This document shows, one piece after another, positions 2,496-40,930 of a stretch of 64,000 bases of DNA. The stretch lies in contig NZ_BMCU01000002.1 in assembly GCF_014635345.1 (NCBI RefSeq), forward strand, positions 372,001 through 436,000. The letters run 5' to 3'. How positions within the stretch are numbered: the stretch's first letter is position 1; every line of letters starts with the position of its first letter. The notes below the pieces were generated by a model that had not been told where the DNA came from, ran no database searches, and worked only from the letters and a program-made list of their open reading frames with translations. The DNA is from Rhodococcoides trifolii. GTDB taxonomy: Bacteria > Actinomycetota > Actinomycetes > Mycobacteriales > Mycobacteriaceae. A program made the translations under genes and the position numbers.

Positions 2496-2497
2496 CG

Positions 2498-3181
2498 TTA
2501 CGCGGCCAGCGCGACGGGCCCAGCGGTGACAGCCGGAGGCGGCACCAGCGTCTGCTGCATGTGCAGGTGCTCCTTCGGGCCGATCGCGGTGAGCAGCTTG
2601 CCCGGTGCTGCGGTACCGCCGGTGCCGTTGATGACCACGTTGTACGGGCCCTTCGCCCACGGAGCGCCGGCCTGAGTGAGGCAGTTCTCGATGGTGAACG
2701 ACGCCTTCTCGTTCTGCAGCGAGAAGTCCGCGAGGCGCCCGCCCTGCAGCCACGGCCACAGGAAGTAGCCGTACGGGACGGCGCCGACGCACGGCACACC
2801 CGGCACGTCGGACCACCCTTCGAGGCCGAAGCTTGTCTTGACGGTTTCGCCGAGGCGGATACCGACCGCGTTGCCGTCGCCGTCGAGGACGATGGGCGAT
2901 CCCATGATCATGTTGAACACGTCGGGGTTCACCAGGTTGAAGGCGATGGACGTGGAGATGTATTTGAGTTCGTCCTTCGGCTTGTCGACCCACGCGATCT
3001 TGCCGTTGGCGTTCTTCTCGACAGTCTCGGTGCCCTCCTCGTACTGGGGAGAGGGGGAGATGGAGACGAAGCCGTCGGTGACGATGGTGGTGGCGGGGCC
3101 GACGACGGGGGCGCCGCAGATGTCTTCTTTGGTGATGCGCATGACTTCGGCGCGGATGCTGGGCCAGGGCTTGCTGGGCAT
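2498..3181 (-). CDS. Major tail protein (tail tube)
   Basis: The 227-residue protein starts at ATG 3181 behind a strong GGAGGA site. It shows the actinophage tail-tube pattern: ITKEDICGAPVVGPATTIVT near the N-terminus, then DGFVSISPSPQYEEGTETVE, a LKYISTSIAFNLVNPDVF strand-helix segment and a long beta-rich C-terminal half. It is preceded by a 177-bp gap with a perfect hairpin (3293-3334), so it probably has its own promoter; TATCCT in the gap is a possible -10. Tail tube proteins are needed in many copies, which fits separate expression. Confidence 0.8.
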   Translation of the reverse strand: MPSKPWPSIRAEVMRITKEDICGAPVVGPATTIVTDGFVSISPSPQYEEGTETVEKNANGKIAWVDKPKDELKYISTSIAFNLVNPDVFNMIMGSPIVLDGDGNAVGIRLGETVKTSFGLEGWSDVPGVPCVGAVPYGYFLWPWLQGGRLADFSLQNEKASFTIENCLTQAGAPWAKGPYNVVINGTGGTAAPGKLLTAIGPKEHLHMQQTLVPPPAVTAGPVALAA

Positions 3182-3292
3182 GGTGTCCTCCGGTGGGCGG
3201 GGGCGGTGTTCGCCCGGCCCGCAGCCAGCAGCATGTTCACGGTCGAGGATAGTCGGTGGTCTGGTTGTTGTTCGGTATCTGTTGGTTCGTGA

Positions 3293-3334
3293 GAAGTGCC
3301 CCACCTCAGGAGAGCTGCGGAGGTGGGGCACTTC
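3293..3334 (-). terminator. Strong hairpin ahead of the major tail protein gene
   Basis: A perfect 15-bp stem (GAAGTGCCCCACCTC and its complement) encloses a 12-base loop in the gap between 3359 and 3181. No run of T follows on either strand, so it may act as a rho-type or partial terminator, or as an RNA-stabilising structure at the 5' end of tail transcripts. Confidence 0.6.
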
Positions 3335-3358
3335 GTGTTGTCGGCTAGGTGGGGCCGA

Positions 3359-3517
3359 CTACTTGTTTGACGCGGCTGGCGGCTGTTCGGTTCCGGTGGG
3401 CTTCTCGTAGATCAGTTCGTCGGTGCCGGTGTACCGGTAGGCGCGGCGGCCGTCGGGGAGGCGGACCCAGCCGGGTTGGCCGGCGTCGAGCGGCGGGTCG
3501 AGTGTCGGTTCGTCCAT
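3359..3517 (-). CDS. Small hypothetical phage protein
   Basis: The 52-residue frame starts at ATG 3517 and has a compact central segment WVRLPDGRRAYRYTGTDEL with a Pro-rich N-terminus and C-terminus. Codon use matches the phage. It lies between the convergent SGNH pair and the hairpin ahead of the major tail protein. No family recognised. Its start region overlaps the presumed promoter zone for the plus-strand genes at 3563. Confidence 0.5.
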   Translation of the reverse strand: MDEPTLDPPLDAGQPGWVRLPDGRRAYRYTGTDELIYEKPTGTEQPPAASNK

Positions 3518-3527
3518 GGTCTCAGTA

Positions 3528-3556
3528 TTGCCCACGATTCGAACGGGTGTTCTACT
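3528..3556 (+). promoter_or_regulatory. Candidate promoter for the plus-strand SGNH cassette
   Basis: TTGCCC at 3528-3533 and TCTACT at 3551-3556 are separated by 17 bases and point rightward, a few bases before the ATG at 3563. Transcription would then start at or next to the start codon, giving a nearly leaderless message, which is common in actinobacteria. It would let these genes be expressed independently of the minus-strand late operon. Confidence 0.4.
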
Positions 3557-3562
3557 CGGTGA

Positions 3563-3832
3563 ATGGATGCGGCAGGGTGGATGGACATCGGCAGTCGCCT
3601 TCGCGAGCATGCGAAGGCTCACGCGGACCGACTTAGGGACGAGACCGGTGTGCCGCATTACGTGGACCCCGGCGTGGTGCAGATCGCGGTGAGGTGCGAG
3701 ACCGCGAGTTACTCCCCGTCGGTGCAGCGCCCCAAGTTGGAGAAGCTCGCCGCCGACACTCTTGCGCGTGATCCGACGCCGCAACCAGCGCGAGGGAATT
3801 TCGACCTCAGCTCCCGGCAGGCCGATGCATAA
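3563..3832 (+). CDS. Small hypothetical protein ahead of the membrane-anchored SGNH hydrolase
   Basis: The 89-residue frame (or 83 residues from ATG 3581) runs against the late operon. Codon third positions are GC-rich, as in a real gene, and no minus-strand gene competes for this space. The product is soluble and basic, with helix RLREHAKAHADRLRDETG and a PGVVQIAVRC segment. It ends ten bases before the SGNH hydrolase start, so the two probably form one transcript. No family recognised. Confidence 0.45.
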   Translation: MDAAGWMDIGSRLREHAKAHADRLRDETGVPHYVDPGVVQIAVRCETASYSPSVQRPKLEKLAADTLARDPTPQPARGNFDLSSRQADA

Positions 3833-3841
3833 CTCGGTGTT

Positions 3842-4744
3842 ATGAACCGGTTGCAGGTGCGAACGAACCAACCGGTACGGCATGATGTCGCCGTGGCCGA
3901 ACGACGCAGACGCAGCAAGCAGTCCAACCGACCGAAGGCGGGACCGCCGAGACGCATCACCGGCTGGGCACTCGTCGGTACAGCGGCAGTCGCCGTGTGC
4001 GTCATCGCTCTCGTCGGAGCCCTGTTCGTCTCGCTCACACGCGAGACACCGGAGACCGTCATCGCCAACCCGCCCTCGGCCGCGCCGGCCAACATCGTCG
4101 GAGCGAAGACGGACCTGGCCGCGATCGGGCAGCAGATGCTCGGCGATCAGCCGTTCACCATGACCGTGATAGGAGACTCCACCGGCAACCAGTACGCCGA
4201 GTGGGTGTACCTCCTCGGGCGTCATCTCGCGGACCTCGGCCGAAACGTCACCGTGCACGACTGGTCGATCGACACGAACCAGTACGTCTCGCAGCAGTCG
4301 TTCGGCCCTGCGGACGGTCCGCCGATGGTGATCTGGAACGGTTCGGCGTCAGGCAAGCCCACGCAGTACAGCCTCGACAACTGGGACGCGATGGTCCCGG
4401 AGCCGACCGACTTCTTCATGATCAGCCACGGGCACAACGAGCTGACCGGGGACCAGGCTGTCGGCGGGATCGGGCGCATTCTTGCTCGTACCCTGCCCGA
4501 GCCGACCGCGATCGTGTTGCAGAACCCGCGCCTCGACGAGAACGCCCAACGGCAGGCCGACATCGTTGCCGCCACCCGTGCGCAGTTCGCCACGTCGGAC
4601 GCCGCCGAGGTGGACGTGTGGGCCGCGTTCGAGCAGCAGGGCGACATCGCCCCACTGCTCAACGACGACCGGTTCCACCCGTCCGATGCGGGCGAGATCA
4701 TCTGGGCGAACACGGTGCAGCAGGCGCTCGGTATCCCGACGTAG
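3842..4744 (+). CDS. Membrane-anchored SGNH/GDSL-type hydrolase (likely lysogenic-conversion gene)
   Basis: The 300-residue protein has a basic cytoplasmic N-terminus, one membrane segment (about 41-64) and an extracytoplasmic SGNH domain. The catalytic blocks look intact: GDST with Ser113, GHNE with Asn199, and DRFHP with Asp276 and His279. SGNH enzymes remove esters or acetyl groups from lipids and sugars. The gene runs opposite to the late operon, has its own candidate promoter and ends exactly where the minus-strand tail SGNH gene ends (TAG abutting CTA). An anchored envelope esterase expressed by a lysogen could change the cell surface; that role is inferred. Confidence 0.8.
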   Translation: MNRLQVRTNQPVRHDVAVAERRRRSKQSNRPKAGPPRRITGWALVGTAAVAVCVIALVGALFVSLTRETPETVIANPPSAAPANIVGAKTDLAAIGQQMLGDQPFTMTVIGDSTGNQYAEWVYLLGRHLADLGRNVTVHDWSIDTNQYVSQQSFGPADGPPMVIWNGSASGKPTQYSLDNWDAMVPEPTDFFMISHGHNELTGDQAVGGIGRILARTLPEPTAIVLQNPRLDENAQRQADIVAATRAQFATSDAAEVDVWAAFEQQGDIAPLLNDDRFHPSDAGEIIWANTVQQALGIPT

Positions 4745-9047: not shown

Positions 9048-10916
9048 CTAAGCGGCGACGATCTTGCCGGTGGCGTCGAGCTTCTGCGGCGCCGAAGTGG
9101 TGCCGGACAGATCCACCGGGAACGTGGTGACGTACGCCTTGTACTGGCGGCGAAGCACGAGCAGCTTCTCCTCCACGAACAGGTGCAGGAAGTCGTTCAC
9201 CTTGATGTTGGTGGAGTCGTACACCGCGTTCAGCGACACGATTTCGCCGCGGCCTCGGACGAACGCTCCGGCTGCGTAGATGATCGCCTTGATGCTGGTG
9301 GGCCATGCCGTCGGCAGTGTGGCGGAGCCGAGGGCGGTGGCGCCGGTGGCGCCGGTGAAGGCGTCCTGCCAGTCGTAGAGCCACTGCACCTTGGCGTGGC
9401 GGACGGTGAACCACGCGTTGATCTGCTCGTCGGTGATGTTCAGGGCCTGCGTGCGGTCCATGCCGGAGGCGACGGCGAGGTCGGCCTTGAACAGTTCCTT
9501 CGCGAACAGCGGCAGCTTCACTTCCAGCGACATGGTGTCCGCGGCCCGGTAGAGGTACCGGTAGTGCGTCATCTGGAAGTTCAGGCCGTTGAGGATGGCG
9601 GTCGTTGCCGACGGCCCCATGGTGACGGTGCCGCCGCTGGTGGACTGCGCTTCCACCTGGGCGATGGACAGTGCGTTGACCTTGTGGGCGTGCGCGACGA
9701 GGGCGCCGCGGGTGACGCGCTGCGTCATCTCGGGGTACGCGTCGTTCTGCAGGATGCCCGCCTCGATGGCGGTGTGCACGACTCCTGCGCGGGTGTCCGT
9801 CCAGTTGGTGCACGGCACCCGGTACACGGCCTTGGTGTACCCGGCGATGGCCTCGGCCTCCGTCTTGTACACACCGATGCCTGCGCCGGAGTAGATGGCG
9901 GAGAAGTCGGGGCCCTCGGTGGTGCGGATACCGCCGCGGGTGACGGCGATCTCGGGGAGGTCGATGAGGTTGGTCGTCGCCTCGAGCTCACCGGCGAGTT
10001 CGTACAGCGTTTCCGATGGGGAGCACCAGCCGCCGGACGCGACGAGCGACTCGCCTTCGAGGCGGCGTTCGTTGCTGATGCGGTCGAGGAGCTGGTCGTC
10101 GTCCCCTGCGTTGGGGGACTGCGTCATGTCGGCGGGGAAGATGTTGCGGATGGAGGCGATTCCGGCCTTGATCTTGGTGCCGGTCGATCCTTCCGGGGGT
10201 ACGTCACCGCCGGCCATCGGGCCGAGGGGCAGCGCACCGAAGCGGGAGACGGCGGCGAGGGACAGTTCGCTGATTCCGTCGAGCTTGGTGCCCATGGGCA
10301 CGCCGGGCACCTCTGCTGCGGCGACGATGGTCATGCGGTTGTCGTCGTGGGTGGAGACGGGAGCTTGGCGGCGGGGCAGGGAGGCGATGTCGACGCGGCG
10401 GCGGGGTGCGGGCCGTCCGGACGCTGCGAGGGCGTCGCCGGTAGGTGCGTCCGCTGCGGGGGCGGCGGGTTCCGTTGCGGCGGGGGTGATGTCGGTGACG
10501 GTGGCTGCCGGTGCGGCATCCCCTTCCGCACCGGCAGCGTCTGCGGGGGCGTCGGTGGCGGTGTCTGCGGGCGCGTCGTCCACCGGCGCGTCGTCAGCCG
10601 GTGCGGGGTCGGCGTTGACCTTCGCCTTGAGTGCTTCGAGGCGGGACGCGCGGTCGGTGACCACTTCGTCGCGGCGGGTCTGCTCGGCGCGCAGCCCGTC
10701 GATGACCTCCACCAGCAGCTCTGCGGCGAGGGTGGCGTCGTCGGATTCCGATGCGCCGTCGAGGATTTCGTTGAACTGGGCGACCGCTTCCTTGGTGAGG
10801 GCGGACACGTCGAGCGTGGGGTTGTCCTTGAGGAACGCGGTGAGGGCTTCGACGGCCTTGCCGCCGTCGGCTTCCTGCGCCTTGTTGACCAGGTCCTGAA
10901 GAGTGATGGGGTCCAC
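9048..10916 (-). CDS. Major capsid protein with long N-terminal scaffold-like extension
   Basis: GTG 10916 sits behind AGGAGG; the longer frame upstream is not used. The product has 622 residues. Residues 1 to about 200 are helical and then Ala/Asp/Pro-rich and acidic, typical of a fused scaffolding or delta domain. The capsid body starts near an internal MTIVAAAEVPGVP, the likely protease cleavage region, and includes TTEGPDFSAIYSGAG and the C-terminal VNDFLHLFVEEKLLV. HK97-type capsids assemble with such a domain, which the protease encoded upstream then removes. The hairpin after the stop supports high expression. Confidence 0.8.
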   Translation of the reverse strand: MDPITLQDLVNKAQEADGGKAVEALTAFLKDNPTLDVSALTKEAVAQFNEILDGASESDDATLAAELLVEVIDGLRAEQTRRDEVVTDRASRLEALKAKVNADPAPADDAPVDDAPADTATDAPADAAGAEGDAAPAATVTDITPAATEPAAPAADAPTGDALAASGRPAPRRRVDIASLPRRQAPVSTHDDNRMTIVAAAEVPGVPMGTKLDGISELSLAAVSRFGALPLGPMAGGDVPPEGSTGTKIKAGIASIRNIFPADMTQSPNAGDDDQLLDRISNERRLEGESLVASGGWCSPSETLYELAGELEATTNLIDLPEIAVTRGGIRTTEGPDFSAIYSGAGIGVYKTEAEAIAGYTKAVYRVPCTNWTDTRAGVVHTAIEAGILQNDAYPEMTQRVTRGALVAHAHKVNALSIAQVEAQSTSGGTVTMGPSATTAILNGLNFQMTHYRYLYRAADTMSLEVKLPLFAKELFKADLAVASGMDRTQALNITDEQINAWFTVRHAKVQWLYDWQDAFTGATGATALGSATLPTAWPTSIKAIIYAAGAFVRGRGEIVSLNAVYDSTNIKVNDFLHLFVEEKLLVLRRQYKAYVTTFPVDLSGTTSAPQKLDATGKIVAA

Positions 10917-10982
10917 CGTGGGCCTCCTGCGGGTGTTGCGGGCAACTAGTGCCCGGCCCGGAGCCAGCGGCGATTCGCCCAC

Positions 10983-10992
10983 CACTGTATCC
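10983..10992. promoter_or_regulatory. Half-site of the dispersed operator-like motif
   Basis: An exact CACTGTATCC half-site lies in the gap between the major capsid gene and the small gene at 11018. The matching left arm is poor, so it is at best a half-site. Confidence 0.3.
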
Positions 10993-11017
10993 CGTGGTGG
11001 TGGTGTTGGTGGTGAAG

Positions 11018-11161
11018 CTACCGGTCTATGCGTTCGTAGGAACCGCCGGAGGAGGTGGCGGCGGTTTTCGCTTCGATTTCGGAGGGGTAGGTGCGGACGG
11101 TGTTGTCGGGGAATCGGACTTGGTGTGTGACGGACCGGTTGCGGCCGCAGTTGCATCCCAT
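11018..11161 (-). CDS. Small Cys-containing phage protein (DUF7196-like)
   Basis: The 47-residue frame starts at ATG 11161: MGCNCGRNRSVTHQVRFPDN followed by VRTYPSEIEAKTAATSSG. The MGCNCG start and a single strand-helix body with an EAK segment match a short protein often found just before capsid genes in actinophages. It begins 38 bases after the protease stop and ends before the capsid gene. Function unknown; the two close cysteines could bind metal. Confidence 0.65.
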   Translation of the reverse strand: MGCNCGRNRSVTHQVRFPDNTVRTYPSEIEAKTAATSSGGSYERIDR

Positions 11162-11198: not shown

Positions 11199-14102
11199 TC
11201 AGGCGTAGAACCGTTCCATCTCGTAGAGCGCTCGCTGGCGTTGCTCCGGAGTTGCGTCGGGGTGAGTCACGAGGCGCACATTGAGCCCCGACCGCAGCAC
11301 ACGGTTGAACAGGTACTTTCGGCTCTCGTCGTCGTAGTTGCCGCTGTCCGGGTCGAACACGTCGAGGGCGGCGCCGAAGTCGCTGTACACCTCGACCAGT
11401 TCGGGTGTGGACATACCGGCGCGGGTCAGCTTCTCGCCGAACAGGTCCGGTGACAGCGGCCTCGGGTCGACGTATCCGCGGTGTGCGTCGATAATCGCGC
11501 TGAAGTCGTCCCCGATGCGGTCGATCTGCGCCTCAGCGATTGCGGCGTCATCGTCCAGGCTTTCGGGTAGGTCACCGCCGGCGATCCAATCGCTGAACAA
11601 CTCGACGTTGAGCCCGGCGGCTATGACGTCGTCCGCCACTGCTTTCACGTCGACGTCTTCCATTCCTGCTGTGTCGGGGCGATTCTTGCCGTATTCGTGG
11701 CGGTCGTTGTAGATGCTGAGGCGAACCGCTTCGGCGAGCATCAGCCCGGTGTTGGGTTTCGCGGAGGCGAGGTCGGTGGCCCGGTAGTTGGTGGTGTACT
11801 CCGGAAACGGTGTACCTCCGGCGGGGCCGGGTGGGCGTGCATCGGTGTTGATGACCGATCCCATCGGCTGCCCGTAATACCGTGCACCTTCAGGGGTTTC
11901 GACGCGGCGGACGGCGGCGCGGGCGAGTGCGTTCTTCTCACCCTTCTGCTTCCCGGGCCACCGGCCGAACACCCGGTGGTAGTACTTCGCGGCGAGGCCG
12001 TGGATCTGCTCGATGGTCATGTCGTCGCCGGCGACCTTCGTCAGTTCCTTCACGAGCTGGGTGTACGGGTGTGCGCCGCGCGCCCACTTCGCGAGGCCCT
12101 TGCCTTCGGTCCAGTACCGCTCCAGCGGCTTCGCCTTCTGGTCGTCGGTCTTGGCGGCGGCTCGTTCGGGTTCCGGCTCGGACGCCGATTCACTCTCGGA
12201 GAAACTGGGGGTCAGGCTGGTGTGTCCGATCGTCACCTGCACTACGCGGTGCGCTGCGGCTTGTACGCGGTGAGCTCGCACTCGCTGCGCTGCACGGGCG
12301 ATGCGGCTTTCGCGGTCCCGTGTTGCAGCGAGCGCGGCGAGGTCCACTCGTTTCGGCTCCACCGGGCGGCCTTGAATCATCGGTGCGGCCGATGCGACCA
12401 GGGTGTGCACCCCAGGTGCTGTGTACGAGCGGGTCGGTGGGGCCATAAACCCTGGCGAGTTCACGGACAACACCGCGATGAGTTGCAGGCGTCTTGGTGA
12501 GCTGGCATTTGCGCGGAGACGGCGCCAGTCGCCAGATACTGCTGATGCCTGGATCATGGTGATCTGTTCGTCGCTGAGGCCAGGCACGAGGCGCCCGGAC
12601 ACGAACGGGCCGAACTCACCGTTGCGGCACCGAACCAGCGCGCCGACGGTGCCGGTGTTGTCGTAGTGCGACAACGCGCCCTGCGCGCCGAGCTTGTCAC
12701 CCGCATGGCCGGTGCCGAACGTGATCTTCCCGACGCGGGTCATCCCGTTGGTCGTGGCGATGGGCCCACCCTGGTGAAACGCGTTGTAGTCGTCGTTCTC
12801 GACGTACGGCGGGGTGGTGCAGTTGTCAGGGAACGCTGCATGGCATGAATCCCACGGCGCAACGTGACCGAAGACTCGGCCGTCGTCGGTCACAGTGAGC
12901 ATCGTGTACTCGTCGGGTTCGGGCTGCTCGAAGTCTTTGGCGTCGTACACGATCCCAGCGGCAACGAGGCCCTCGGTGAGCGGCTCGAGGTGAATGTCGC
13001 GGACGTCCTCGTCGGCCCACGACAGGCGGATCCGGTCGAAGCGGATGGCGCCGGTCTCCTTCAGCTCGGACACGTCGAGGCCGTACCCGGCGGTGATGTG
13101 GGGCAGGAAGTTGTCGTACGGTTCGGGAATCGGCGCCAACCCTGGGGTGTCCGCGATCGCGCCGTACATCATCGATTGCATCCCCGACAGGCCCATCGCC
13201 TGCACGAGGTACACCGCGCACGGGTTGTCGCCGTCGGGGTTGAACTGGGCGTGCCCCATGACAGTGCCGTTCAGCGGCACCGTGAAGTCGAGCTCGCGGA
13301 CGGCCGCCTCGAGCTGGTCCCGCGCTTCGGGTGACCAGTCGGCGGCTTCGCCAAGGAAAACCATCGTGGTGTGCAGCACCTCCGGTGCTTCGTACCCTTC
13401 GACGGCGAGGCGCTCGCAGTCCGCCTGCGATGGGATCAGAGCCACCATCGCCCCGGTGTGCACCGCCGCCGCGGCCACCAGAGCTTCGCGAGCGCGGACG
13501 GGGGCGAACTCCTCACCCCACACCGGCTCGATGCGAGCGGATTCGAACGCCGGCCCCGCCACGAGGGTGGTGCCCATCAGCTTCCACCCGGGCACGCGGA
13601 ACAGCACGTTCGCCACAAGCGGCGGTTCGGGTGCGGGGCCTTCGCCGCCTGCGGCTTCCCAGTCGGTCATCGCCGTTTCGTAGGCGGTGAACATCTCCTC
13701 CGGCATCTCGACGTCGTCGGCGTCGAGGGGAACCTGTTCGACGGTGATGTCGGACATGTCGGCACTGACCCATCCGGCGGTGCCGCGGCCGACGCGCCCG
13801 GCCCAGTCGCGGGCTTCGGGGTCGTCGAGGTCGAACGGTCCTTCGGCCCATAGATGCCCGTCCTGCACCCACGCGCGGGTGATGAGACCGACGACGATGC
13901 TGCCGTCGTGTCCTTCGGCGAGGGACTTCTGCGCGGACAGTGGCAGCGGCAGCGGGCGGATCAGCGGTTCGGCACCGTCGGCCAGGACGAACTCTCGCCG
14001 GTCACCGGAGCGGGTGTTCATCGGCATGATCGGGCCCCTGAAGCCCGTGGGCAGGCCCGTCCGATCAGCCTCGGTCGGGGTGTCGATCGTGGGTGCGGTC
14101 AT
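11199..14102 (-). CDS. Capsid maturation protease with inserted 2H phosphoesterase domain
   Basis: The 967-residue protein starts at ATG 14102 behind AGGAGG. Residues about 20-200 resemble the N-terminal part of actinophage prohead proteases. Residues about 216-375 look like a 2H phosphoesterase: HTT at 244-246 and HIT at 335-337, each at the end of a strand, as in LigT/cyclic phosphodiesterase families. Residues about 400-560 return to protease-like sequence (GHVAPWDSCH, FGTGHA, HYDNTG, VNSPGF). The rest includes RYWTEGKGLAKWARGAHPY, a domain common in actinophage virion proteins, and a helical C-terminus. The 2H domain might ride in the capsid; its substrate is unknown. Confidence 0.75.
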   Translation of the reverse strand: MTAPTIDTPTEADRTGLPTGFRGPIMPMNTRSGDRREFVLADGAEPLIRPLPLPLSAQKSLAEGHDGSIVVGLITRAWVQDGHLWAEGPFDLDDPEARDWAGRVGRGTAGWVSADMSDITVEQVPLDADDVEMPEEMFTAYETAMTDWEAAGGEGPAPEPPLVANVLFRVPGWKLMGTTLVAGPAFESARIEPVWGEEFAPVRAREALVAAAAVHTGAMVALIPSQADCERLAVEGYEAPEVLHTTMVFLGEAADWSPEARDQLEAAVRELDFTVPLNGTVMGHAQFNPDGDNPCAVYLVQAMGLSGMQSMMYGAIADTPGLAPIPEPYDNFLPHITAGYGLDVSELKETGAIRFDRIRLSWADEDVRDIHLEPLTEGLVAAGIVYDAKDFEQPEPDEYTMLTVTDDGRVFGHVAPWDSCHAAFPDNCTTPPYVENDDYNAFHQGGPIATTNGMTRVGKITFGTGHAGDKLGAQGALSHYDNTGTVGALVRCRNGEFGPFVSGRLVPGLSDEQITMIQASAVSGDWRRLRANASSPRRLQLIAVLSVNSPGFMAPPTRSYTAPGVHTLVASAAPMIQGRPVEPKRVDLAALAATRDRESRIARAAQRVRAHRVQAAAHRVVQVTIGHTSLTPSFSESESASEPEPERAAAKTDDQKAKPLERYWTEGKGLAKWARGAHPYTQLVKELTKVAGDDMTIEQIHGLAAKYYHRVFGRWPGKQKGEKNALARAAVRRVETPEGARYYGQPMGSVINTDARPPGPAGGTPFPEYTTNYRATDLASAKPNTGLMLAEAVRLSIYNDRHEYGKNRPDTAGMEDVDVKAVADDVIAAGLNVELFSDWIAGGDLPESLDDDAAIAEAQIDRIGDDFSAIIDAHRGYVDPRPLSPDLFGEKLTRAGMSTPELVEVYSDFGAALDVFDPDSGNYDDESRKYLFNRVLRSGLNVRLVTHPDATPEQRQRALYEMERFYA

Positions 14103-14144: not shown

Positions 14145-15992
14145 CTACATAGATGGTTCTGGGGATTCCTCGGGTGGCATGACAGTCGCTTCGACGACTG
14201 GCACCTGCCCTTGGGCGTAGGTGACGGCGCCGATGGCGAGGACGGTGCCGACGGGTAGGAGCAGGTCATTGTCGTCACCGCCGAACGTGGGGAGCCACAG
14301 TGCGGGTGTTCCGGTGGGCGCGTGGACCCGCAGATGGATGGCGCCGCCGCCGGATGTGGTGGGCACGCGGATCGGCGGTGCGGCCGTCAGGTTGGTGGGG
14401 AGGAACCCCGGCACGGTGACCTGGGAGTCGGTCAGGGCGGGAAGGTCGGCGGTGGGGACACCGAGGACGGGGAGAACGTCGGGCACCGCAACCGCTGTGT
14501 CCACCGTGGCGGGCAGCGGCGTCATCAGTTCCTCGAGCAGCTCAACATCCGACGGCTCGTCCGACTGTTCGGGGCTGTCCGTTCCCCATTCGATAGCTTC
14601 GCCCTGTACAGCGGCGGGTGCGCGGAGCCACCGTTGCACCGCCTGCTGCTGCTCTGGTGACGCGTCCTCCGCCGCGTCTGCGAACGTCTCGTCGAGCTGC
14701 TCGGCGACCTCCTCCACTGAAAGCGGAGCAGGCTCGGGTGTGGGATCGTCCTCCGGTTCAGGTTCTGCCGCATCGGGCACTGGCGGTTCCGGCGTCGCCC
14801 GCGTTTCCGGAACGTCGTCCAGGTCGACAACTTCGTCGGCCATCTCCCGCTTCACCCGGTCCACCGCGTCCGCCACTTCGGCGTCGTCGTCGGGCCCGAG
14901 GCGCGCATTCATCGGTCCGACACCGCGGCCGCCCCACTGCCCCTGCAGCTCCGACTGCGTCTCGGTGTCGGTGAGGATCCGCATTGTGCACCGGCAGTTG
15001 ATCGTTTCGTGGGCGGGGCCGAACGGGTCAGCAGGATGCTGCAGCGGGAAGCCACCGACGGTGAACGGTTCGGCGAGGCGCACCATCTGCCCGTCCGCCA
15101 CTGCGTGGGTGTGCCGGGTGCGTTCGTCGGACGTGGCGAGCCACGCCTTGAACATGCGGTCGCCGGTGATGTCCTCTGCAGCTTGCGCGGCGGCGAGGGT
15201 GCCGGCGTTCATCGCGCCTTGCACTTCGGTGCGGGCGATGCGGCGTGCTTTCCATTGCCACTCTTCGTTGCGTTCGTCGTGCTGCTGCCACAGTTGGCGG
15301 CGGCGGCCGCGTAATCCGGGCAGTTCGGAGCGGGGTGTGTCGGGGTCTGCGAGTTGCTTGTCGATGACGCCGATGTCGGCGCGGATGCGGCGTGCTGGTG
15401 CGTCGATGTTGAGGACGCGGCCGATGCGTTCTTCGATCTGTTCCATGCTTTCGCCTTCGGCGATGGCTTCGAGGAGTTCGGGTCGGAGTTCTTCGAATGC
15501 GCCTTCGGGCCAGATGACGAGGCGGTCGTGGACGGTGGCCATGTGCGCTTCTTGGTAGTGCACGGGGGTGAGGTCGGCGGTGCGTGCGTTGGCGCGGAAT
15601 GCTTCGCCGAACGCTTCGGTGATGGCGGGTTCGATGTGTTCGGTGAGTGCGCGCGCCCAGACGTGGAAGGAGGCTTGGGCGGCGTCGACGTCGGGTGGTT
15701 CACCGGATGAGGCGGTGAGGGTGTCCCTTACATCGGAGGTCATAATTTGACCTTTTCGTGCACCATCCGCAGGTGGGTGGCGGTTGGTGACATTTGCTGT
15801 AAAAAATTTACCGCCAATGTCACCCGTCGATGCGGTGAGCGTGTCGGGTAGCGGTTGGTGCAACACCAGCGCTCGGGCCGCGTCCAACCATTCGGTCATC
15901 GCGGTGACCACAGCGGCGTGCACCCGTCGTTCCTGCGCCCGCATCATCCGTTCATTGCGCAGGCGCAGCGGGAGGTGCGGGTCACGTCTCAT
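14145..15992 (-). CDS. MuF-like minor capsid protein with degenerate ADP-ribosyltransferase-like C-terminus
   Basis: Of 615 residues, about 120-340 form the MuF-like head morphogenesis domain, with ARTEVQGAMNAG (253-264) and the signature region WLATSDERTRHTHAVADGQ to INCRC (284-335). An acidic Pro-rich linker follows. Residues about 425-605 resemble an ADP-ribosyltransferase fold: AIHLRVHAPTGTPALWLP then DNDLLLPVGTVLAIG. The catalytic motifs look lost: ExE is DND (575-577) and STS is PTN (532-534). The N-terminus carries a 37-residue insert between two DTLTAS copies (51-56, 91-96). An internal ATG at 15743 with AAGG upstream could give a shorter form. Confidence 0.75.
   Translation of the reverse strand: MRRDPHLPLRLRNERMMRAQERRVHAAVVTAMTEWLDAARALVLHQPLPDTLTASTGDIGGKFFTANVTNRHPPADGARKGQIMTSDVRDTLTASSGEPPDVDAAQASFHVWARALTEHIEPAITEAFGEAFRANARTADLTPVHYQEAHMATVHDRLVIWPEGAFEELRPELLEAIAEGESMEQIEERIGRVLNIDAPARRIRADIGVIDKQLADPDTPRSELPGLRGRRRQLWQQHDERNEEWQWKARRIARTEVQGAMNAGTLAAAQAAEDITGDRMFKAWLATSDERTRHTHAVADGQMVRLAEPFTVGGFPLQHPADPFGPAHETINCRCTMRILTDTETQSELQGQWGGRGVGPMNARLGPDDDAEVADAVDRVKREMADEVVDLDDVPETRATPEPPVPDAAEPEPEDDPTPEPAPLSVEEVAEQLDETFADAAEDASPEQQQAVQRWLRAPAAVQGEAIEWGTDSPEQSDEPSDVELLEELMTPLPATVDTAVAVPDVLPVLGVPTADLPALTDSQVTVPGFLPTNLTAAPPIRVPTTSGGGAIHLRVHAPTGTPALWLPTFGGDDNDLLLPVGTVLAIGAVTYAQGQVPVVEATVMPPEESPEPSM
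15786..15824. repeat. AT-rich 18-bp-arm inverted repeat inside the MuF gene
   Basis: Arms GGTGACATTTGCTGTAAA and TTTACCGCCAATGTCACC pair at 16 of 18 positions around AAA. The stretch is far richer in A+T than the surrounding DNA and lies in an in-frame insert of about 110 bp between two similar copies of a DTLTAS-coding sequence. It may be a protein-binding site or remnant of a small mobile sequence. Confidence 0.6.
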
Positions 15993-16218
15993 CAGGCGCC
16001 GCTCTGTGTCGCTTCACGAGCCCGTACGCGTGGGTGCCGCCGTACAGGAACGCGGATACGAGGAACCACCACTGCTGCGTCGCTACGGCATACGCGACCC
16101 ACAGGAACTGCGCGGCGATCCCGATCGTCGGGCCGAGCTTCGACTGCGACCGGTACGCCAGGGCGATGCCGGCCACGCCGATCACGATGAGGGTGAACGA
16201 CCACCACAGGCTGATCAT
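15982..16218 (-). CDS. Small multi-pass membrane protein
   Basis: ATG 16218 overlaps the HIT gene stop by ATGA and the frame runs 11 bases into the MuF gene. The 78 residues have three hydrophobic segments (ISLWWSFTLIVIGVAGIALA, IGIAAQFLWVAYAVA, WWFLVSAFLYGGTHAYG) and a basic C-terminus, predicting an inner-membrane protein. Such small membrane genes inside head operons are common in actinophages but of unknown role. Confidence 0.55.
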   Translation of the reverse strand: MISLWWSFTLIVIGVAGIALAYRSQSKLGPTIGIAAQFLWVAYAVATQQWWFLVSAFLYGGTHAYGLVKRHRAAPDET

Positions 16219-16562
16219 CGCCGCTGTCCGGTCCACGGCAGCGTGAGGCCGTCGTCTGCGCAACGCGGCACTACGTGAATGTGCAGGTGCATCACAGTCT
16301 GAGTGGCGGCCGCACCCACCGACGTGATGATGTTGGCTGGTCCGACATCATCACGCACGAACCGCGATGCGGCCTGCATGACGACACCTGCGATTGTCGG
16401 GAACTCGGCAGCGGACTCGACGTGCGCTGTCGGCACGAACAGTGTGTGGCCAGGGGTGACGGGGTTCAGCGGAGCGAACCACACCACTCCGAACGAGTCG
16501 ATGGAGTCGGTACCGTCGTACTCCTCGTTTGCGATGCGGTCGCAGAACACGCAGTCGATCAT
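16215..16562 (-). CDS. HIT-family nucleotide hydrolase
   Basis: ATG 16562 gives 115 residues. The histidine triad is intact: HLHIHVV with His92, His94 and His96, preceded by the usual PGHTLFVP segment (37-44). An N-terminal CVFCDRI (4-10) matches the zinc-binding cysteine pair of HINT/FHIT-like members. HIT proteins hydrolyse nucleotide phosphoramidates, dinucleoside polyphosphates or adenylylated substrates. The gene is coupled on both sides within the head-gene run between portal and MuF, an unusual place for such an enzyme; it might clear nucleotide alarmones during infection, which is inference. Confidence 0.85.
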   Translation of the reverse strand: MIDCVFCDRIANEEYDGTDSIDSFGVVWFAPLNPVTPGHTLFVPTAHVESAAEFPTIAGVVMQAASRFVRDDVGPANIITSVGAAATQTVMHLHIHVVPRCADDGLTLPWTGQRR

Positions 16563-16792
16563 CCGGTCCACACCGTCATGCGGCGGGCGATGCACCAATC
16601 CTCGAACTGCCGCACCTGCTCGGAGTTGTACGCGAGCCACAGTGCCATCGCCGACCCGATCATCTGGGTGCCGCTGGTGTCGTCGGAGAACATCCCACCC
16701 ACCAACAGCTCAGCGGCGATGGTGAACGGCACGTTGTCCACCATCCACTGCGCAGCCACTGCTGGTGTGGCGTCCGCCGCGAGGTCACTCAC
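16559..16792 (-). CDS. Small hypothetical phage protein
   Basis: GTG 16792 (overlapping the upstream stop by eight bases) gives 77 residues. The body is helical: PAVAAQWMVDNVPFTIAAEL, then MIGSAMALWLAYNSEQVRQF and a Trp-containing end. Its own stop overlaps the HIT gene start by ATGA. The longer open frame upstream is a shadow of the neighbouring gene. No family recognised. Confidence 0.5.
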   Translation of the reverse strand: MSDLAADATPAVAAQWMVDNVPFTIAAELLVGGMFSDDTSGTQMIGSAMALWLAYNSEQVRQFEDWCIARRMTVWTG

Positions 16793-17138
16793 CGTGACCC
16801 ACCAGCGCCGCCACCAACCGATCGCGGGTGTGCGGCTCCCTCCGCACCAGCAGTCCCCGCACGTAGATGTCGCACGCCTCGTACATCGCGTGTCGACCGG
16901 GCAACACCAACGCGAGGTGGTCCCACGCCCCGTCGAGCAAGCGGTCGCACCCGTCAGGGGTGTCAGCGTTGAACAAGCGGGTGTACAGCAAGTAGTCGGG
17001 TACGCCGTTGGCGTGGGCACGGTTCTGACGGGGGTTGCCGTTCTGGCGGCCGCGGCACCGTTTCCCCGCGAGCTCGAGCGCGCGAAGCACCGCCACTTCG
17101 CAGGCGAGGAATTCGTCGATGGTGACGGTTGCGGTCAC
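16785..17138 (-). CDS. Hypothetical phage protein after portal
   Basis: ATG 17138 overlaps the portal stop by ATGA. The 117-residue product is mostly helical (TIDEFLACEVAVLRALELAG, LLDGAWDHLALVLPGRHAMY) with a basic stretch of Arg/Asn residues near 27-43. It has no recognisable catalytic motif. The close coupling to portal suggests a head-assembly role, inferred only. Confidence 0.55.
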   Translation of the reverse strand: MTATVTIDEFLACEVAVLRALELAGKRCRGRQNGNPRQNRAHANGVPDYLLYTRLFNADTPDGCDRLLDGAWDHLALVLPGRHAMYEACDIYVRGLLVRREPHTRDRLVAALVGHGE

Positions 17139-18772
17139 GGCGTCGCCCCGTCGTCGGGGGTGATGGTGCTGTCGGGTGGGTCTGGTATCGCGGTGTCAGT
17201 GCGGTCCGCTGTACCGGCCCCACGGCTGGGCGTCGGGTTCTCGTCGCCCGGGTTGTTCGCTGGCGCCGCCGTCACACCGGTCAGCGCGTCGATCACCGAC
17301 CGGTCGATGTTCGGCACGATCGCGGGAAGCAACGCGTACGCGAAGTTCGGGTTCGCATCCAGCAGCCGGATCATCAGTCGGCGGGTCCGCTCCGTGTCGT
17401 CCGGAACGTCGTCGTCGTCGAAACCGGACTCCCGCAGCAGCGCCTCGGCGGACAGCTCGTCCTTGTCGAACAGGGACTGCGCGTCCTTCGACCGGTCGGG
17501 GCGCAGCGCCAACGGTGATGTGTCGAACCAGATTTGGTACTTGTCCCAGTCGGGCACACCGAGCTGCTCGAGCGCCGGCTGATACCAGCCGACGGTGAGG
17601 GCGTGGCAGATCGTCGCCGCCACAGGGGAGATGGACAGGGTGACTTCGTCTTCGCTGATCTGCCAGGCGGACCAGTGGTTCGCCCCTCCGGATCCCATGC
17701 CCAGCAGCACTTCGGGTGGTGCGTCCATGCCGAGGGCGATGCGGCGGATCTCTTCGGAGCGGAGGTCCTTCGCCTGCGGGTCGAGGGGGGTGGTGAAGGT
17801 GATGTGCTTGATCTTGTCGATCAGTTCGGCGGGCAGCTTCGCCACGAACGGCACCAGGGCGGACGCACTGTCGCGGTCTTTGACGGGGGTGACCATGGAA
17901 ACCATCAGGTCGCGGACGAACGGGTCGATGTCGTCTTCGTCGTCGAACCCTGATGCACCTTGCCCGGCGAGCGCTTCGATTTCCTGCGGCACCAGCAGCA
18001 TCCCGGCGCCGGCCAATCGTGATTCGACTTGTGCGCTGGTGTGTTTGGACAGTTCGCGGAGTGTGCGGGCGTTGGACAGCACCGCGCGGGCGGGGCAATC
18101 AGGGAGGGCGGAGTATTCGGGGTCGGGGATCCAGCAGCGGACGACGAGCTCGTCGTCGCGGAGGTTGCGGTTCTCGATGCCGTCGTTGAGTTTCCAGTTG
18201 GTGCCGGATCCGGTGACTTCGTTGGTGGAGCGTGGTTCGAGGGTGTGGTTGCCGTGTTCGTCTTCGCTGATCACGAACAGTGATTCACCGGCGAACGACA
18301 GGTGTTGGGCGGCTCGTTTGGTGACTTGCTGCGTGCGGGCGCGGGACCCGAACATGCCTTGCGCGAGGTCGAGGGCGGGGCCGTCTTCGACTGGGGTGGG
18401 GGCGTTCATGGGGTTCTCGACTTTGGCGCCGAAGAACACGACGCGGGACACTCCGCGGGCGACGCGGTCACCTGCGAAGCGGAATTCGCCGATTTCTTTC
18501 CGCAGTTCCCATGACTCTTGTTGCCAGGGCATTTTCTTCCACTGGGCTTTGCTGGTTTGGGCGACGTTGGGGCCGTGTACGACTTGGGCGGCGGCGGTGA
18601 GTGCTTCGGTGTCGTCGGTGCTGTTGGGGAGGTTGTAGTGGCCGATGATGGCGCCGGGGACGTTGCGGATGCGTGTGTTGGCGACGGTGCTTCGTGAGGG
18701 GGTGAGGGCTTCGGCTTCTTGGGCGGCGGTGGATTCGGGGCGGCGGCCGCGGCGGCGGGCGGGGGTGGTCAT
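17135..18772 (-). CDS. Portal protein
   Basis: The 545-residue protein has portal hallmarks: an N-terminal wing with WELRKEIGEFRFAGDRVARG, a central region DPFVRDLMVSMVTPVKDRDS and the stem or crown segment EEIRRIALGMDAPPEVLLGM with SGGANHWSAWQISEDEV, typical of actinophage portals. Portals form the dodecameric DNA channel at one capsid vertex and dock terminase. It is coupled by ATGA to both neighbours. The C-terminus is Pro/Thr/Asp-rich and probably flexible. In this phage it lies more than 4 kb after the large terminase, separated by accessory genes. Confidence 0.88.
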   Translation of the reverse strand: MTTPARRRGRRPESTAAQEAEALTPSRSTVANTRIRNVPGAIIGHYNLPNSTDDTEALTAAAQVVHGPNVAQTSKAQWKKMPWQQESWELRKEIGEFRFAGDRVARGVSRVVFFGAKVENPMNAPTPVEDGPALDLAQGMFGSRARTQQVTKRAAQHLSFAGESLFVISEDEHGNHTLEPRSTNEVTGSGTNWKLNDGIENRNLRDDELVVRCWIPDPEYSALPDCPARAVLSNARTLRELSKHTSAQVESRLAGAGMLLVPQEIEALAGQGASGFDDEDDIDPFVRDLMVSMVTPVKDRDSASALVPFVAKLPAELIDKIKHITFTTPLDPQAKDLRSEEIRRIALGMDAPPEVLLGMGSGGANHWSAWQISEDEVTLSISPVAATICHALTVGWYQPALEQLGVPDWDKYQIWFDTSPLALRPDRSKDAQSLFDKDELSAEALLRESGFDDDDVPDDTERTRRLMIRLLDANPNFAYALLPAIVPNIDRSVIDALTGVTAAPANNPGDENPTPSRGAGTADRTDTAIPDPPDSTITPDDGATP

Positions 18773-23200: not shown

Positions 23201-24814
23201 TCAGCGGGTGATGCGCCGAGCAGCCACACCAGTAGCGCGCTGCACCTCGTCCTTCCGCTTCCCCGCCACACTCACCACCTTCGCCCCCGACGCCACCGCG
23301 GGCAGCAGCTCGTACGCCAAGTGCACACCCGCATCCAACGCACCCGGTGACCACTCCGACCCCGGCTCCCACATCTCGAACTCCGACTTCAGCTCGTTCA
23401 ATTCCAACGCCGGGCCGAACCACGCACGCCCCGTGTTCACCGCCTGCGCGATCGGCTCCGCCCGCAGGAACTTCGACTTGCGGGACGCGACGCCGGTGAC
23501 CATCGGGCACAACGCGCCACGCGGGATGTAGGACTCCCCGGTGTCAGGGTTCGTTTCGTGTTGCAGCGCGAGCCACGCCTGCTTGATGAGGGTGCCGGCC
23601 TGGTCGCCGCCGTAGTTGTTCTCGTACACGATGCGGTCGGCGTCGATCTCGTGGGCGAGTAGGCACGCTTCCCTCGACCACTTGTCCGACGACATGCGGG
23701 CGGTGCGTGAGTGGGTCCACCAGAACCGGCCCGACGTGTCGAGGTGGCCGCCGATGATGCCCGCGGTGTCCCTGCCACCACCCGACGGGTCGATGCCCAC
23801 GCCGGTGCGGCGGGCGGGGCCGGGGATGCCAGTGCGGTCTCGGATCATGTCCTTCGACAGCAGCACGCCTTGGGTGCCGAACGGGGAGCACTGGAACAGG
23901 CTGTTCCAGTCGCGGGTGGACACGGATGCTTTGCGTCCGGACCAGTGGCGGTTCAGCGCATCGTGGTCGTTCTCGGGGATCTGGGGGTGCGACAGCGGTG
24001 TTCCGATGGGGCGGCCCAGGCTATCGGGGTGGATGTTGCGGTCAGGGTCCGGCTGAACTGCCACGGCGGGGAGGTACAGGACAATCCACTTGCCGCCTTC
24101 GTCGATGGTGCCGTCCAGTTCGAGGCGTTCTCCGGCGAGGTCGTCTTTGTGCCAGCGGGTCATGGTCATGATTTCGCGGGCTTCGGGGTGCTTACGGGTG
24201 GTGAATGCGGAGGAGTACCACTCGGATACGGCTTTGCGGATGACGGGGGAGTCGGCTTGAGCGCGGTCGGCGTAGGGGTCGTCGATGATTCCGAGGTTCA
24301 TCTGCTTGCCGGTGATGCCGCCGCGCACACCTTTGGAGAGCATTCCGCCGCCTGCGGTGGTGGTCCATTCGGCGCGGGTGTTTTCGTCGCGTTTGAGTTG
24401 GAGGCCGTAGGGGGCGCCGTAGTCCTCGACGAAGTCTCGGCATGCTGCGCCGTGTCCTTGGGCGAGGGATGCGGCGTAGGAGCAGAGGACGATGCGGTCG
24501 GTGGGGTTGCGGGTGAGGAGCCAGAACGGGAACCACCGGCTGATGATGGTGGATTTTCCGGATTGGGGTGGGGCGAAGACCATGAGGCCGGCGCCGGGTG
24601 TGGCGGAGAGTTGCACGAGGGCTTTGTCGATGGCGATGAGGTGCTCGCGCGGCACTTGGCGGGGGTCGCATTTCTGGGCCAGTTGGAGTGGCCCTTCGAT
24701 TGCGTTGTTGATGGGGATACCCAGTTTGATTGATGTTTCGGCGAGTTTGTCGCGGAGAGCGCGTTTCTCACGGTCGGGGAGTTTCCGCCACTCACCCGAT
24801 TCGAGGAGGCTCAT
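23201..24814 (-). CDS. Terminase large subunit
   Basis: The 537-residue protein carries an ATPase with Walker A APPQSGKST (81-89) and Walker B NLGIIDDP (173-180), then a C-terminal RNase H-like nuclease with GVGIDPSGGG near 342-351. It pumps DNA into the prohead and cuts the concatemer. Start ATG 24814 gives the normal family length. It stands alone: a plus-strand gene is directly upstream and an operator-like repeat directly downstream, so it is probably transcribed through from the early block or from a local promoter. Confidence 0.95.
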   Translation of the reverse strand: MSLLESGEWRKLPDREKRALRDKLAETSIKLGIPINNAIEGPLQLAQKCDPRQVPREHLIAIDKALVQLSATPGAGLMVFAPPQSGKSTIISRWFPFWLLTRNPTDRIVLCSYAASLAQGHGAACRDFVEDYGAPYGLQLKRDENTRAEWTTTAGGGMLSKGVRGGITGKQMNLGIIDDPYADRAQADSPVIRKAVSEWYSSAFTTRKHPEAREIMTMTRWHKDDLAGERLELDGTIDEGGKWIVLYLPAVAVQPDPDRNIHPDSLGRPIGTPLSHPQIPENDHDALNRHWSGRKASVSTRDWNSLFQCSPFGTQGVLLSKDMIRDRTGIPGPARRTGVGIDPSGGGRDTAGIIGGHLDTSGRFWWTHSRTARMSSDKWSREACLLAHEIDADRIVYENNYGGDQAGTLIKQAWLALQHETNPDTGESYIPRGALCPMVTGVASRKSKFLRAEPIAQAVNTGRAWFGPALELNELKSEFEMWEPGSEWSPGALDAGVHLAYELLPAVASGAKVVSVAGKRKDEVQRATGVAARRITR

Positions 24815-39769: not shown

Positions 39770-40930
39770 ATGGCGTGGGCAAGGAAACTGCCGTCCGGGA
39801 AGTGGCAGGCGTGCTACCGCGACAGCGCCGGCGGGGTCCGCACCGCGGGCACCTATCCGCGGCAGAACCAAGCGAAGAACGAAGCTGCGGCCGCCGAGAA
39901 AGCGGAGCGGGATCTGCCCACCCCAGCCGAAGCTGCGCGACTCACCTGGGGAGACTGGCGGCCCCGCTGGGAAGCGTCACGCATGATCGCCGCGTCCACC
40001 GCCCGCGCTGACGCCCGACGCCTCGACATCCACTTGCAGCCTTATTGGGGCAAACGGGTGCTGCGGTCCATCACCTCGGAAGATGTTCAGCAGTGGGTGA
40101 AGGTGATGGCGGGCACCACCACGGCGCGCGGGCAACGGATGGCCCCAGCCACCGTCACGCTGTGCTACAGACTGTTCTCCAACAGCATGAAGGCAGCGGT
40201 GAAAGCGCGAGTCCTCGCGGCGACACCGTGCCAGCAGATAGCGCTACCTGAGGCCGGCCCCGCACCGGACCGGTACCTCGAGGACGACGAAGAGGTCGCG
40301 ATTTTCGAGCACCTCGACGCGCGCGACCGGTTCGCCGCCGAACTTCTCGTGGGTACCGGCATGCGCCTGGGCGAAGGATTCGGTACGCATTGGGAGTCAG
40401 TGGACCTGGTGCGCCGCACTGTTCTGGTCAACAGGTCGTTCGATGACGGCGGCGGCATCATGAAGGCGCCGAAGTCGTACGCGCAGCGGGTGGTGCCCAT
40501 CTCGATGAGGTTGGCGGAGTTGCTGCGGGAGGAACTGGGGGAGCGTGGCCCCGGTCGGCCGGCGCCGATCGATTACGGGGATGCGTTGCGGGCGCGCACT
40601 GGTTTGGTGCTTCCTGGGCGGGATGGGATGCCGATGGATTCGCACGCGTTCCGGAAGCGGTTCCATCGTGCTGTGGGGTGGGCGTCCACTGGTCCTGATG
40701 ATGCGCGGCTTCCGGTGGGTCATGTGCGGGTGCACGACCTGCGGCACACATATGCGTCGCGGTTGGTGCGCGCGGGTGTGCCACTTCTGCAGGTGAAGGA
40801 ACTACTGGGGCATTCGTCGATCACGGTGACGGAGCGGTACGCACATCTGGCGCAGTCGCAGTGGGATGGGGTGCGGGCTGTGCTTGATGGGCCGGGTCGT
40901 GCTGCAGGTCGTGCAGCAGAAGCGTTGTGA
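39770..40930 (+). CDS. int: Tyrosine site-specific integrase
   Basis: The 386-residue protein has an N-terminal arm-binding region, a SAM-like core-binding domain (about 60-150) and a catalytic domain with the full set Arg199 (TGMRLGEG), His322 and Arg325 (HDLRHTYAS), His348 (LGHSS) and Tyr357 (TERYAHL). It inserts the phage at the tRNA 3' end and, with the excisionase-like protein, excises it. Candidate arm-type sites and the attachment core follow within 110 bp of its stop. Confidence 0.95.
   Translation: MAWARKLPSGKWQACYRDSAGGVRTAGTYPRQNQAKNEAAAAEKAERDLPTPAEAARLTWGDWRPRWEASRMIAASTARADARRLDIHLQPYWGKRVLRSITSEDVQQWVKVMAGTTTARGQRMAPATVTLCYRLFSNSMKAAVKARVLAATPCQQIALPEAGPAPDRYLEDDEEVAIFEHLDARDRFAAELLVGTGMRLGEGFGTHWESVDLVRRTVLVNRSFDDGGGIMKAPKSYAQRVVPISMRLAELLREELGERGPGRPAPIDYGDALRARTGLVLPGRDGMPMDSHAFRKRFHRAVGWASTGPDDARLPVGHVRVHDLRHTYASRLVRAGVPLLQVKELLGHSSITVTERYAHLAQSQWDGVRAVLDGPGRAAGRAAEAL

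Follow-up and report, generated by a model that had tools for sequence, protein, structure and literature searches.

The prophage locus

The window analyzed here is a 64,000-nucleotide stretch of the Rhodococcoides trifolii genome (contig NZ_BMCU01000002.1, positions 372,001 to 436,000 of the forward strand), and its subject is a gene for a prophage head protein of 967 amino acids in which a 2H phosphoesterase domain is embedded. The open reading frame (ORF) lies on the minus strand, with AGGAGG 8 bases 5' of its ATG start. On the basis of profile matches the product was divided into a protease-like N domain, the 2H domain, a second conserved head domain (P2), a C1 module and a C-terminal region:

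11199..14102, minus strand: whole gene, 967 amino acids, ordered N-2H-P2-C1-C-terminal region (ORF; PHROG and profile scans)
13503..14054, minus strand: N domain, residues ~17-200, S78-type prohead protease-like (conserved residues; S78 in some relatives; phrog_859 coverage)
12978..13469, minus strand: 2H phosphoesterase domain, residues 212-375 (PHROG, PDB profile, Pfam, AlphaFold, Foldseek, motif register)
13365..13373, minus strand: first catalytic motif, HTT, residues 244-246
13092..13100, minus strand: second catalytic motif, HIT, residues 335-337
12423..12974, minus strand: P2 domain, residues 377-560 (phrog_18402 'head maturation protease', E = 3.8e-101; alignment A2; conserved columns)
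11937..12134, minus strand: C1 module, residues ~657-722 (phrog_6439, unknown function)
11199-11822, minus strand: C-terminal region, residues 761-967 (among the loci scanned, profile match only in the window and its duplicate locus)

A 2H phosphoesterase domain within the head protein

The 2H segment was recognized at the levels of sequence and predicted fold. The PHROG family phrog_2659, labelled 'RNA ligase', matches residues 212-373 at E = 6.2e-34. Pfam 2_5_RNA_ligase2 (PF13563) matches at E = 0.0012 (19.3 bits) when the whole protein is scanned and at E = 6.4e-5 (23.5 bits) on the isolated domain, both under the curated cut-off of 27 bits; the family was found at E ≤ 0.01 in 26 of 28 aligned 2H segments, including that of the window, and its cut-off is exceeded by three relatives (our loci L103, 35.6 bits; L066, 32.4; and L074, 29.9). 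A profile built from the 28 segments matched PDB entries 1vdx (1.3e-8), 1iuh (4.8e-8), 2fyh (1e-7) and 5h7e (4.8e-7), followed by the penguinpox cyclic GMP-AMP (cGAMP) phosphodiesterase (9.1e-6) and the phage enzyme Acb1 (9q2g, 0.0016). Both HxT motifs are in register with 1vdx, 1iuh, 2fyh and 5h7e in the alignments of these four best matches.

The AlphaFold model of residues 208-381 has a mean predicted local distance difference test (pLDDT) of 89.6 and a predicted template modelling score (pTM) of 0.84. A Foldseek search with this model returned 26 PDB chains at E ≤ 0.001, all recognized as members of the 2H superfamily: 24 by their titles, and 1iuh ('2'-5' RNA Ligase') and 7pub_DQ ('AKAP7_NLS domain-containing protein') only through the names given in the PDB profile search. 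The list is headed by drCPDase and Escherichia coli LigT and also holds the viral RNase L antagonist (4ye2, 4rpt), Acb1, rotavirus VP3, Usb1, ASCC1 and the poxvirus cGAMP phosphodiesterase; template modelling scores on the query are moderate, 0.45-0.65, in keeping with a divergent superfamily. The Acb1 model (PF23474) found no match in the window 2H at E ≤ 0.01; it matched 2 of the 28 aligned segments at that threshold, and GMA2_10 scored E = 7.9e-4, under the cut-off of the model.

The catalytic motifs are strongly conserved. An alignment with the window copy as reference held 41 distinct rows, 40 of them with letters at the motifs; H and T of the first motif are each present in 40/40 rows, and the second has H in 40/40 and T in 39/40 (one Ser). 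Identity to the window copy spans 20-72% (alignment A5), with the histidines kept in all 40 rows, which were gathered by profile and are therefore biased towards motif-bearing sequences. The 2H domain of Streptomyces phage Asis has HVT at both motifs, and those of Streptomyces phages Mischief19 (L114) and phiSAJS1 (L115) keep both histidines and have HIC as the second motif.

That two HxT motifs might have arisen by chance outside a 2H fold draws on the sub-threshold Pfam scores of the window copy; 2H profile, predicted fold and conservation contradict and refute it, as far as these methods reach, and we give it a negligible chance. Residues ~212-375 are thus confirmed, by profile comparison and structural modelling, as a genuine 2H phosphoesterase domain with predicted phosphodiesterase activity. 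The first-pass annotation had proposed this domain from its HTT and HIT motifs in LigT-like strand context, and both motif positions and register stand. Its proposed comparison with LigT and Acb1 gave a 2H fold, with LigT-type enzymes first and Acb1 weaker, and neither the lack of a two-lobed fold nor motifs at non-equivalent strands was seen in model or alignments; its proposed profile search succeeded with PHROG and PF13563, though under the Pfam cut-off and with no match to the Acb1 model.

In a viral library the top matches of the domain were Gordonia phage 'RNA ligase' proteins, and 390 of 50,697 records in a phage collection matched it at E ≤ 0.001, each at less than 60% identity; 44 of the 60 listed among the 390 are labelled 'RNA ligase'. 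This annotation is probably borrowed from the name of the Pfam family and would give a misleading idea of the function. An RNA ligase function was rejected, as the label is the family name and Pfam scans of the protein and the 2H segments contained no ligase domain.

Domains flanking the 2H domain

The N domain is nearly invariant at H65 (67/70 aligned rows), S113 (71/71) and D115 (68/70), and also at D34; we infer that His65 and Ser113 may form its catalytic pair. At E ≤ 1, Peptidase_S78 was detected in six of the 38 N domains aligned (best 8.8e-4) and S77 in one (0.002), among 14 families altogether at that threshold (S78 and 13 others); the window copy matched none. PHROG head maturation protease families matched 3/38 and 1/38 N domains at E ≤ 0.01, and a PDB sequence search with the N domain gave nothing useful. 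The N domain is likely an S78-like maturation protease that is weakly detectable.

The PHROG 'head maturation protease' match on the other side of the 2H domain extends over residues 377-617, and H421, H466, H479 and S523 of P2 are each invariant (95/95 rows). A P2 profile found no solved protease in the PDB, and a Foldseek search with a three-domain N-2H-P2 model gave one weak row for a Kaposi's sarcoma-associated herpesvirus protease (E = 0.079, matching region unstated) among the best 50 of 302 rows. P2 carries its label without independent protease evidence, and its role is putative. That N and P2 are two copies of one protease was considered from a likeness of secondary structure by eye and rejected: hhalign found no similarity between the two domains, using small alignments. 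In the three-domain model (pLDDT 79.9, pTM 0.45) the relative placement of the domains is unreliable, given the low pTM. Judged from these alignments, the 2H domain sits between a protease-like N domain and a second conserved head domain. The earlier reading of prohead protease on both sides thus holds weakly for the N side, through the S78 matches of relatives, and for P2 reduces to the PHROG label; of its wider interpretation, the part retained is that a head-assembly protein contains a 2H fold complete with its two catalytic motifs, and substrate, presence in the mature virion and delivery are predicted only. For residues 761-967, profile scans of the loci found no function.

Genes around the 2H-bearing gene

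Further ORFs are interspersed among the head genes, which on the minus strand run in the order terminase, portal, histidine triad (HIT) protein, MuF, 2H-bearing gene and major capsid protein. They are part of a prophage carried by a 5.29-Mb host genome, with the integrase as context:

9048..11156, minus strand: major capsid protein, 702 amino acids (phrog_777, 1.7e-138; NF033847, 4.5e-168)
14145..15992, minus strand: MuF-type minor head protein, 615 amino acids (PF04233, 4.2e-15)
16215..16640, minus strand: HIT-family protein, 141 amino acids (PF01230, 5.2e-11, over cut-off)
17135..18772, minus strand: portal protein (phrog_776, 2.1e-129)
23201..24814, minus strand: terminase large subunit (phrog_38, 1.6e-75)
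39770..40930, plus strand: integrase (phrog_1, 7.7e-62)

A scan of named genomes found three relatives in which N, 2H and P2 are all covered, with 54-68% identity in the best segment; they are carried by two Rhodococcus strains and Rhodococcoides kyotonense. No record among the 50,697 of the phage collection covers 80% of the whole protein. With the single 967-residue protein as query, a viral-contig scan matched nine stretches, none of them confirmed, and a PDB sequence search gave nothing useful; nor did an NCBIfam scan of P0001.

The HIT protein contains an HLHIHVV stretch, which we take to be the motif of its family, and HIT genes also lie between MuF and a P2-C1-2H gene in L041, L042 and phage MelBins. 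This protein may be a second nucleotide-acting protein near the 2H domain, and the co-occurrence is perhaps not due to chance.

The 2H domain as a moving module among head proteins

Profile scans covered 108 loci and the window, and a tree was built from 100 P2 domains. The 100 P2 loci, a biased sample, comprise 80 viral-contig loci (the best 80 of 568 confirmed), 12 genome loci, seven chosen phages and the window; L001, L018, L019 and L021 were dropped as repeats before the tree and the motif counts given below. L024 and L015, which have 2H without P2, lie outside the 100 and inside the 42-case count of 2H flanks, and the proteins GMA2 Orf10, MelBins, Asis, Mischief19 and phiSAJS1 are outside the locus counts.

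The 2H domain was present in 40/100 P2 loci and undetected in 60/100, undetected meaning no profile hit in the stretch scanned; several loci are short, so that a separate gene may be missed. Nine arrangements were distinguished: N-2H-P2 (11 cases: the window, L003, L029-L036 and L067), P2-2H (11), MuF-2H-N-P2 (6), a separate nearby gene (6), a 2H-MuF gene (2) and, with one case each, MuF-N-2H-P2, 2H-N-P2, 2H-P2 and MuF-2H-P2. The P2 tree, strongly supported on 28 of 92 inner branches only, requires at least 12 changes between presence and absence of 2H and 14 changes for its placements; one strongly supported group unites L074, with 2H, and L048, L058 and L080, without it. Sites lacking the domain were also found: in seven rows without 2H, two near-identical pairs among them, N and P2 are 26-31 positions apart, and in prophage L005 the gap is 21 residues. 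Other, non-2H unnamed segments fill the N-P2 slot in further loci, and a Pfam scan of 58 insert segments from relatives named eight families, most inserts being without a Pfam name. The 2H domain is a module that has been repeatedly gained, lost and relocated among head proteins.

These patterns bear on two alternatives. The domain could be a structural or RNA-binding module that serves assembly, its activity being incidental, as its place inside an assembly protein and the filling of the same slot by non-2H segments would allow; yet its being undetected in 60/100 loci while the histidines are kept in 40/40 rows is the pattern of catalysis rather than of scaffolding, and we regard this explanation as quite improbable. 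Alternatively, the enzyme could act late and undelivered, destroying in the producing cell a nucleotide signal raised at capsid assembly. Some CBASS (cyclic-oligonucleotide-based antiphage signalling) systems respond to capsid proteins, the position of 2H among capsid genes makes late expression likely, and stand-alone 2H genes exist (Alice gp88, and Wizard gp17 directly after P2), the latter of which would suffice for such a role. An enzyme working only in the cytosol, however, would have no need to be joined time and again to MuF, N or P2 at differing places, and this possibility appears improbable.

In L103, a single protein (1959-4106) combines 2H, an ADP-ribosyltransferase exoenzyme and MuF, all three over their Pfam cut-offs, a domain company that suggests injected effectors.

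Several side observations concern relatives. Orf10 of Gordonia phage GMA2 (L112, 7981-10632), annotated as 'putative structural protein', has 883 amino acids with a C-terminal 2H domain at 729-866 and lies near C1 and P2 genes. An ADP-ribosyltransferase inside GMA2_10 was suspected by eye, and Pfam found none there; a separate ADP-ribosyltransferase gene is nearby (Orf14, PF03496, 1.9e-13). A MuF-N-P2 protein of L063 (4132-5286) contains an intein-splicing-like segment just under the Pfam cut-off (34.8 against 35.8 bits), and the segment at the corresponding position of its close relative L052 is much shorter. L015 (genome G096) has a 2H-like domain (PF13563, 5.8e-6, 26.9 bits with a cut-off of 27) in an open frame of 20,758 codons.

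Exchange of the segment between the motifs

Comparison of L032 and L033 revealed identities of 0.96 in N, 1.00 in the first part of 2H, 0.86 in its last part and 0.99 in P2, but the segment from one motif to the other agrees at only 0.41. The second version of this segment recurs in L030 (0.74 to L033), and L030 and L034 share 0.94 identity on the N-terminal side and 0.62 in P2. In these few examples the aligned sequences indicate that the inter-motif segment is exchanged by recombination, and the exchange may have been selected for substrate.

Relationship to known systems

The carrier protein matches what has been described as polyvalent phage proteins, in that an enzymatic domain is fused to a head protein within the late genes. 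The accessible parts of two studies of such proteins (PMC5512222, PMC9503650) report fusions of 2H with MuF or portal proteins and suggest that the domains act against nucleotide signals or are injected to do so, so that the idea of delivery against such signalling by a head-fused 2H is, in those texts, already in print. The partners there are MuF and portal, whereas the carrier here is a maturation-protease/P2 protein; the architecture figures of those studies may include protease fusions. The main text of PMC9503650 mentions a 'serine peptidase' once, as a Nudix partner, and in the available text of PMC5512222 'prohead' appears in the reference list alone. MuF-VIP2 and MuF-protease fusions are noted for Microbacterium phages in the consulted part of PMC7302621. 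Literature searches, mostly at title level and with few subscription journals, found no description of 2H within a capsid maturation protease; nor did they turn up a protease/P2 protein as the carrier, the variety of placements, loci with an empty slot, an exchanged half-domain or the candidate sites described below. The enzyme described in PMC12287305 is a metallophosphoesterase and not a 2H protein.

Close in composition are proteins of Gordonia phages Zitch (found by tblastn), GTE6, Lilbeanie and MelBins, which join 2H and P2 in one protein as in the window and carry 'RNA ligase' or 'head maturation protease' labels. GTE6, Lilbeanie and MelBins have their domains arranged as P2-C1-2H, with no N domain found in that gene, whereas the window has N-2H-P2. 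A study of nine Gordonia phages including GTE6 and GMA2 reports virion mass spectrometry (PMC4524720).

Like the window protein, rotavirus VP3 has a 2H domain, its C-terminal 2',5'-phosphodiesterase, within a larger viral protein (Foldseek 5af2, 1.4e-4; 6o3v, 1.0e-4), although virus and carrier protein are unrelated. VP3 is a virion protein. Acb1, an anti-CBASS phosphodiesterase, shares the 2H fold and the HxT/HxT tetrad (Foldseek 7t27, 7.5e-5; 9q2g, 2.0e-4); the available text of its description lists the stacking aromatics Y12, W74, F107 and W147, a base contact by E141 and a C-terminal lid (PMC9117128). Acb1 is a small separate protein, whereas the window 2H is a domain within a head protein and does not match the Acb1 model.

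Profile and fold searches place LigT-type enzymes (E. coli LigT, drCPDase) among the nearest proteins of solved structure; these are cellular and stand-alone where the window 2H is part of a phage fusion. This kinship supports a further alternative, namely that the domain is an RNA end-healing or RNA-cleaving (Usb1-like RNase) enzyme acting on 2',3'-cyclic phosphate ends, by which host RNA would be repaired or attacked, and not on the second messengers of immunity. By both sequence and fold the domain is most similar to RNA 2',3'-cyclic phosphodiesterases of the LigT type and to their archaeal and bacterial kin (5h7e, 5ldm, 1vdx, 1iuh), which rank ahead of Acb1 and the poxvirus cGAMP phosphodiesterase, and the accessible text of PMC5512222 suggests that polyvalent 2H domains could act as RNases, a role with which it finds MuF and portal fusions consistent. 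Against the repair form, that same text states that 2H domains of this kind had never been found together with ATP-grasp RNA ligases, and the 14 window proteins scanned with PHROG, part of the prophage, included no RNA ligase or kinase besides the label of the 2H domain itself. We consider this explanation a serious one, though rather unlikely.

Candidate maturation sites and proposed function

The protein contains a recurrent motif, [LIVM]-[TVIALSMK]-A-[AS]-[AGSC] or, loosely, L-x-A-[A/S]-[A/G/S], that starts at residues 208, 209, 379, 568 and 826. Three copies lie next to domains:

13467..13481, minus strand: LVAAA, residues 208-212, candidate cleavage site before 2H
12954..12968, minus strand: LVAAG, residues 379-383, candidate cleavage site after 2H
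12387..12401, minus strand: LVASA, residues 568-572, candidate cleavage site after P2

The motif also occurs at residues 243, 277 and 371 of the capsid protein, 92 of MuF and 58 of portal. Its five copies in the 967-residue protein exceed the shuffle maximum of three, and linkers of the 100 P2 ORFs hold 213 motifs in 16,938 residues, compared with a mean of 19.7 and a maximum of 36 in 200 shuffles; twelve other prophage ORFs have 3 motifs in 4,152 residues (shuffle mean 1.9, maximum 6). A motif lies within ~50 residues upstream of P2 in 75/100 cases; of random 51-residue segments, 9.7% contain one when drawn from ORFs in the 41-64 kb part of the window, and 24% when drawn from the same P2 ORFs. 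Relative to 2H it is found upstream in 24/42 and downstream in 17/42. These copies may be maturation cleavage sites.

We propose that the gene product is a multidomain prophage head-assembly protein, with an S78-like protease domain, 2H, P2 and C-terminal modules, in which the 2H domain would be a catalytically competent cargo and no part of the protease itself. The domain would be packaged during assembly through the maturation protein, since it is tied to a protein that must enter the prohead; the maturation protease would probably cut the polyprotein at the linker motifs, freeing 2H inside the head, and the freed domain could enter the next host along with the DNA. There it would cleave a nucleotide substrate that is cyclic, 2'-linked or of the 2',3'-cyclic-phosphate type; a signal used in defence, or RNA damaged by defence, is the most plausible candidate. 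Immune nucleotides are plausible because this is the fold with which Acb1, and also enzymes of poxviruses and coronaviruses, act on them, the last two being covered by the accessible part of PMC11410667. The kind of carrier, the position, the relocations and the conserved motifs speak for a catalytic cargo; catalysis, processing, virion retention, delivery and substrate are predicted steps. The reading as a whole, in which the cargo is packaged through the maturation protein, possibly cut free, delivered and active on a nucleotide substrate, is held tentatively, at somewhat less than an even chance. A more specific version, in which the protease both carries and frees the 2H domain, the signal is destroyed in the next cell and the half-domain swap changes the signal addressed, seems to us unlikely.

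Several observations weigh against the proposal. The window's own N domain has no Peptidase_S78 match at E ≤ 1, so that the protease assignment is weak. The motif was defined post hoc, by eye, in sequences later counted, the rows of which are related. Capsid, MuF and portal singly, with 3, 1 and 1 motifs, are not above their shuffle maxima of 4, 2 and 2; domain stretches also exceed shuffling (197 motifs in 44,953 residues; mean 27, maximum 44), as do 13 ORFs called mechanically in the 41-64 kb part of the window (12 in 6,811; mean 5.2, maximum 11). Motifs on both sides of 2H were found in only 11/42 cases, eight of them in the clade of the window. The stand-alone 2H genes imply that fusion to a head protein is not obligatory, and the GTE6 record calls the P2-C1-2H protein (Orf18) 'hypothetical' and four other genes of the stretch 'putative structural'. 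It is common for maturation proteases and fragments of them to exit the head, and the 2H domain could therefore be lost before infection. Finally, a search for SMODS found no match in the genome that contains the window; of 201 host-family genomes, 28 had a SMODS match.

Relatives infect cultivated Gordonia and Streptomyces hosts, which opens the delivery idea to virion proteomics and histidine mutants. If the 2H domain is delivered, the maturation protein would serve to load cargo into the head and to release it, and its cargo slot could be inspected in other genomes as well; the phage could disarm nucleotide-based immunity before any gene expression.

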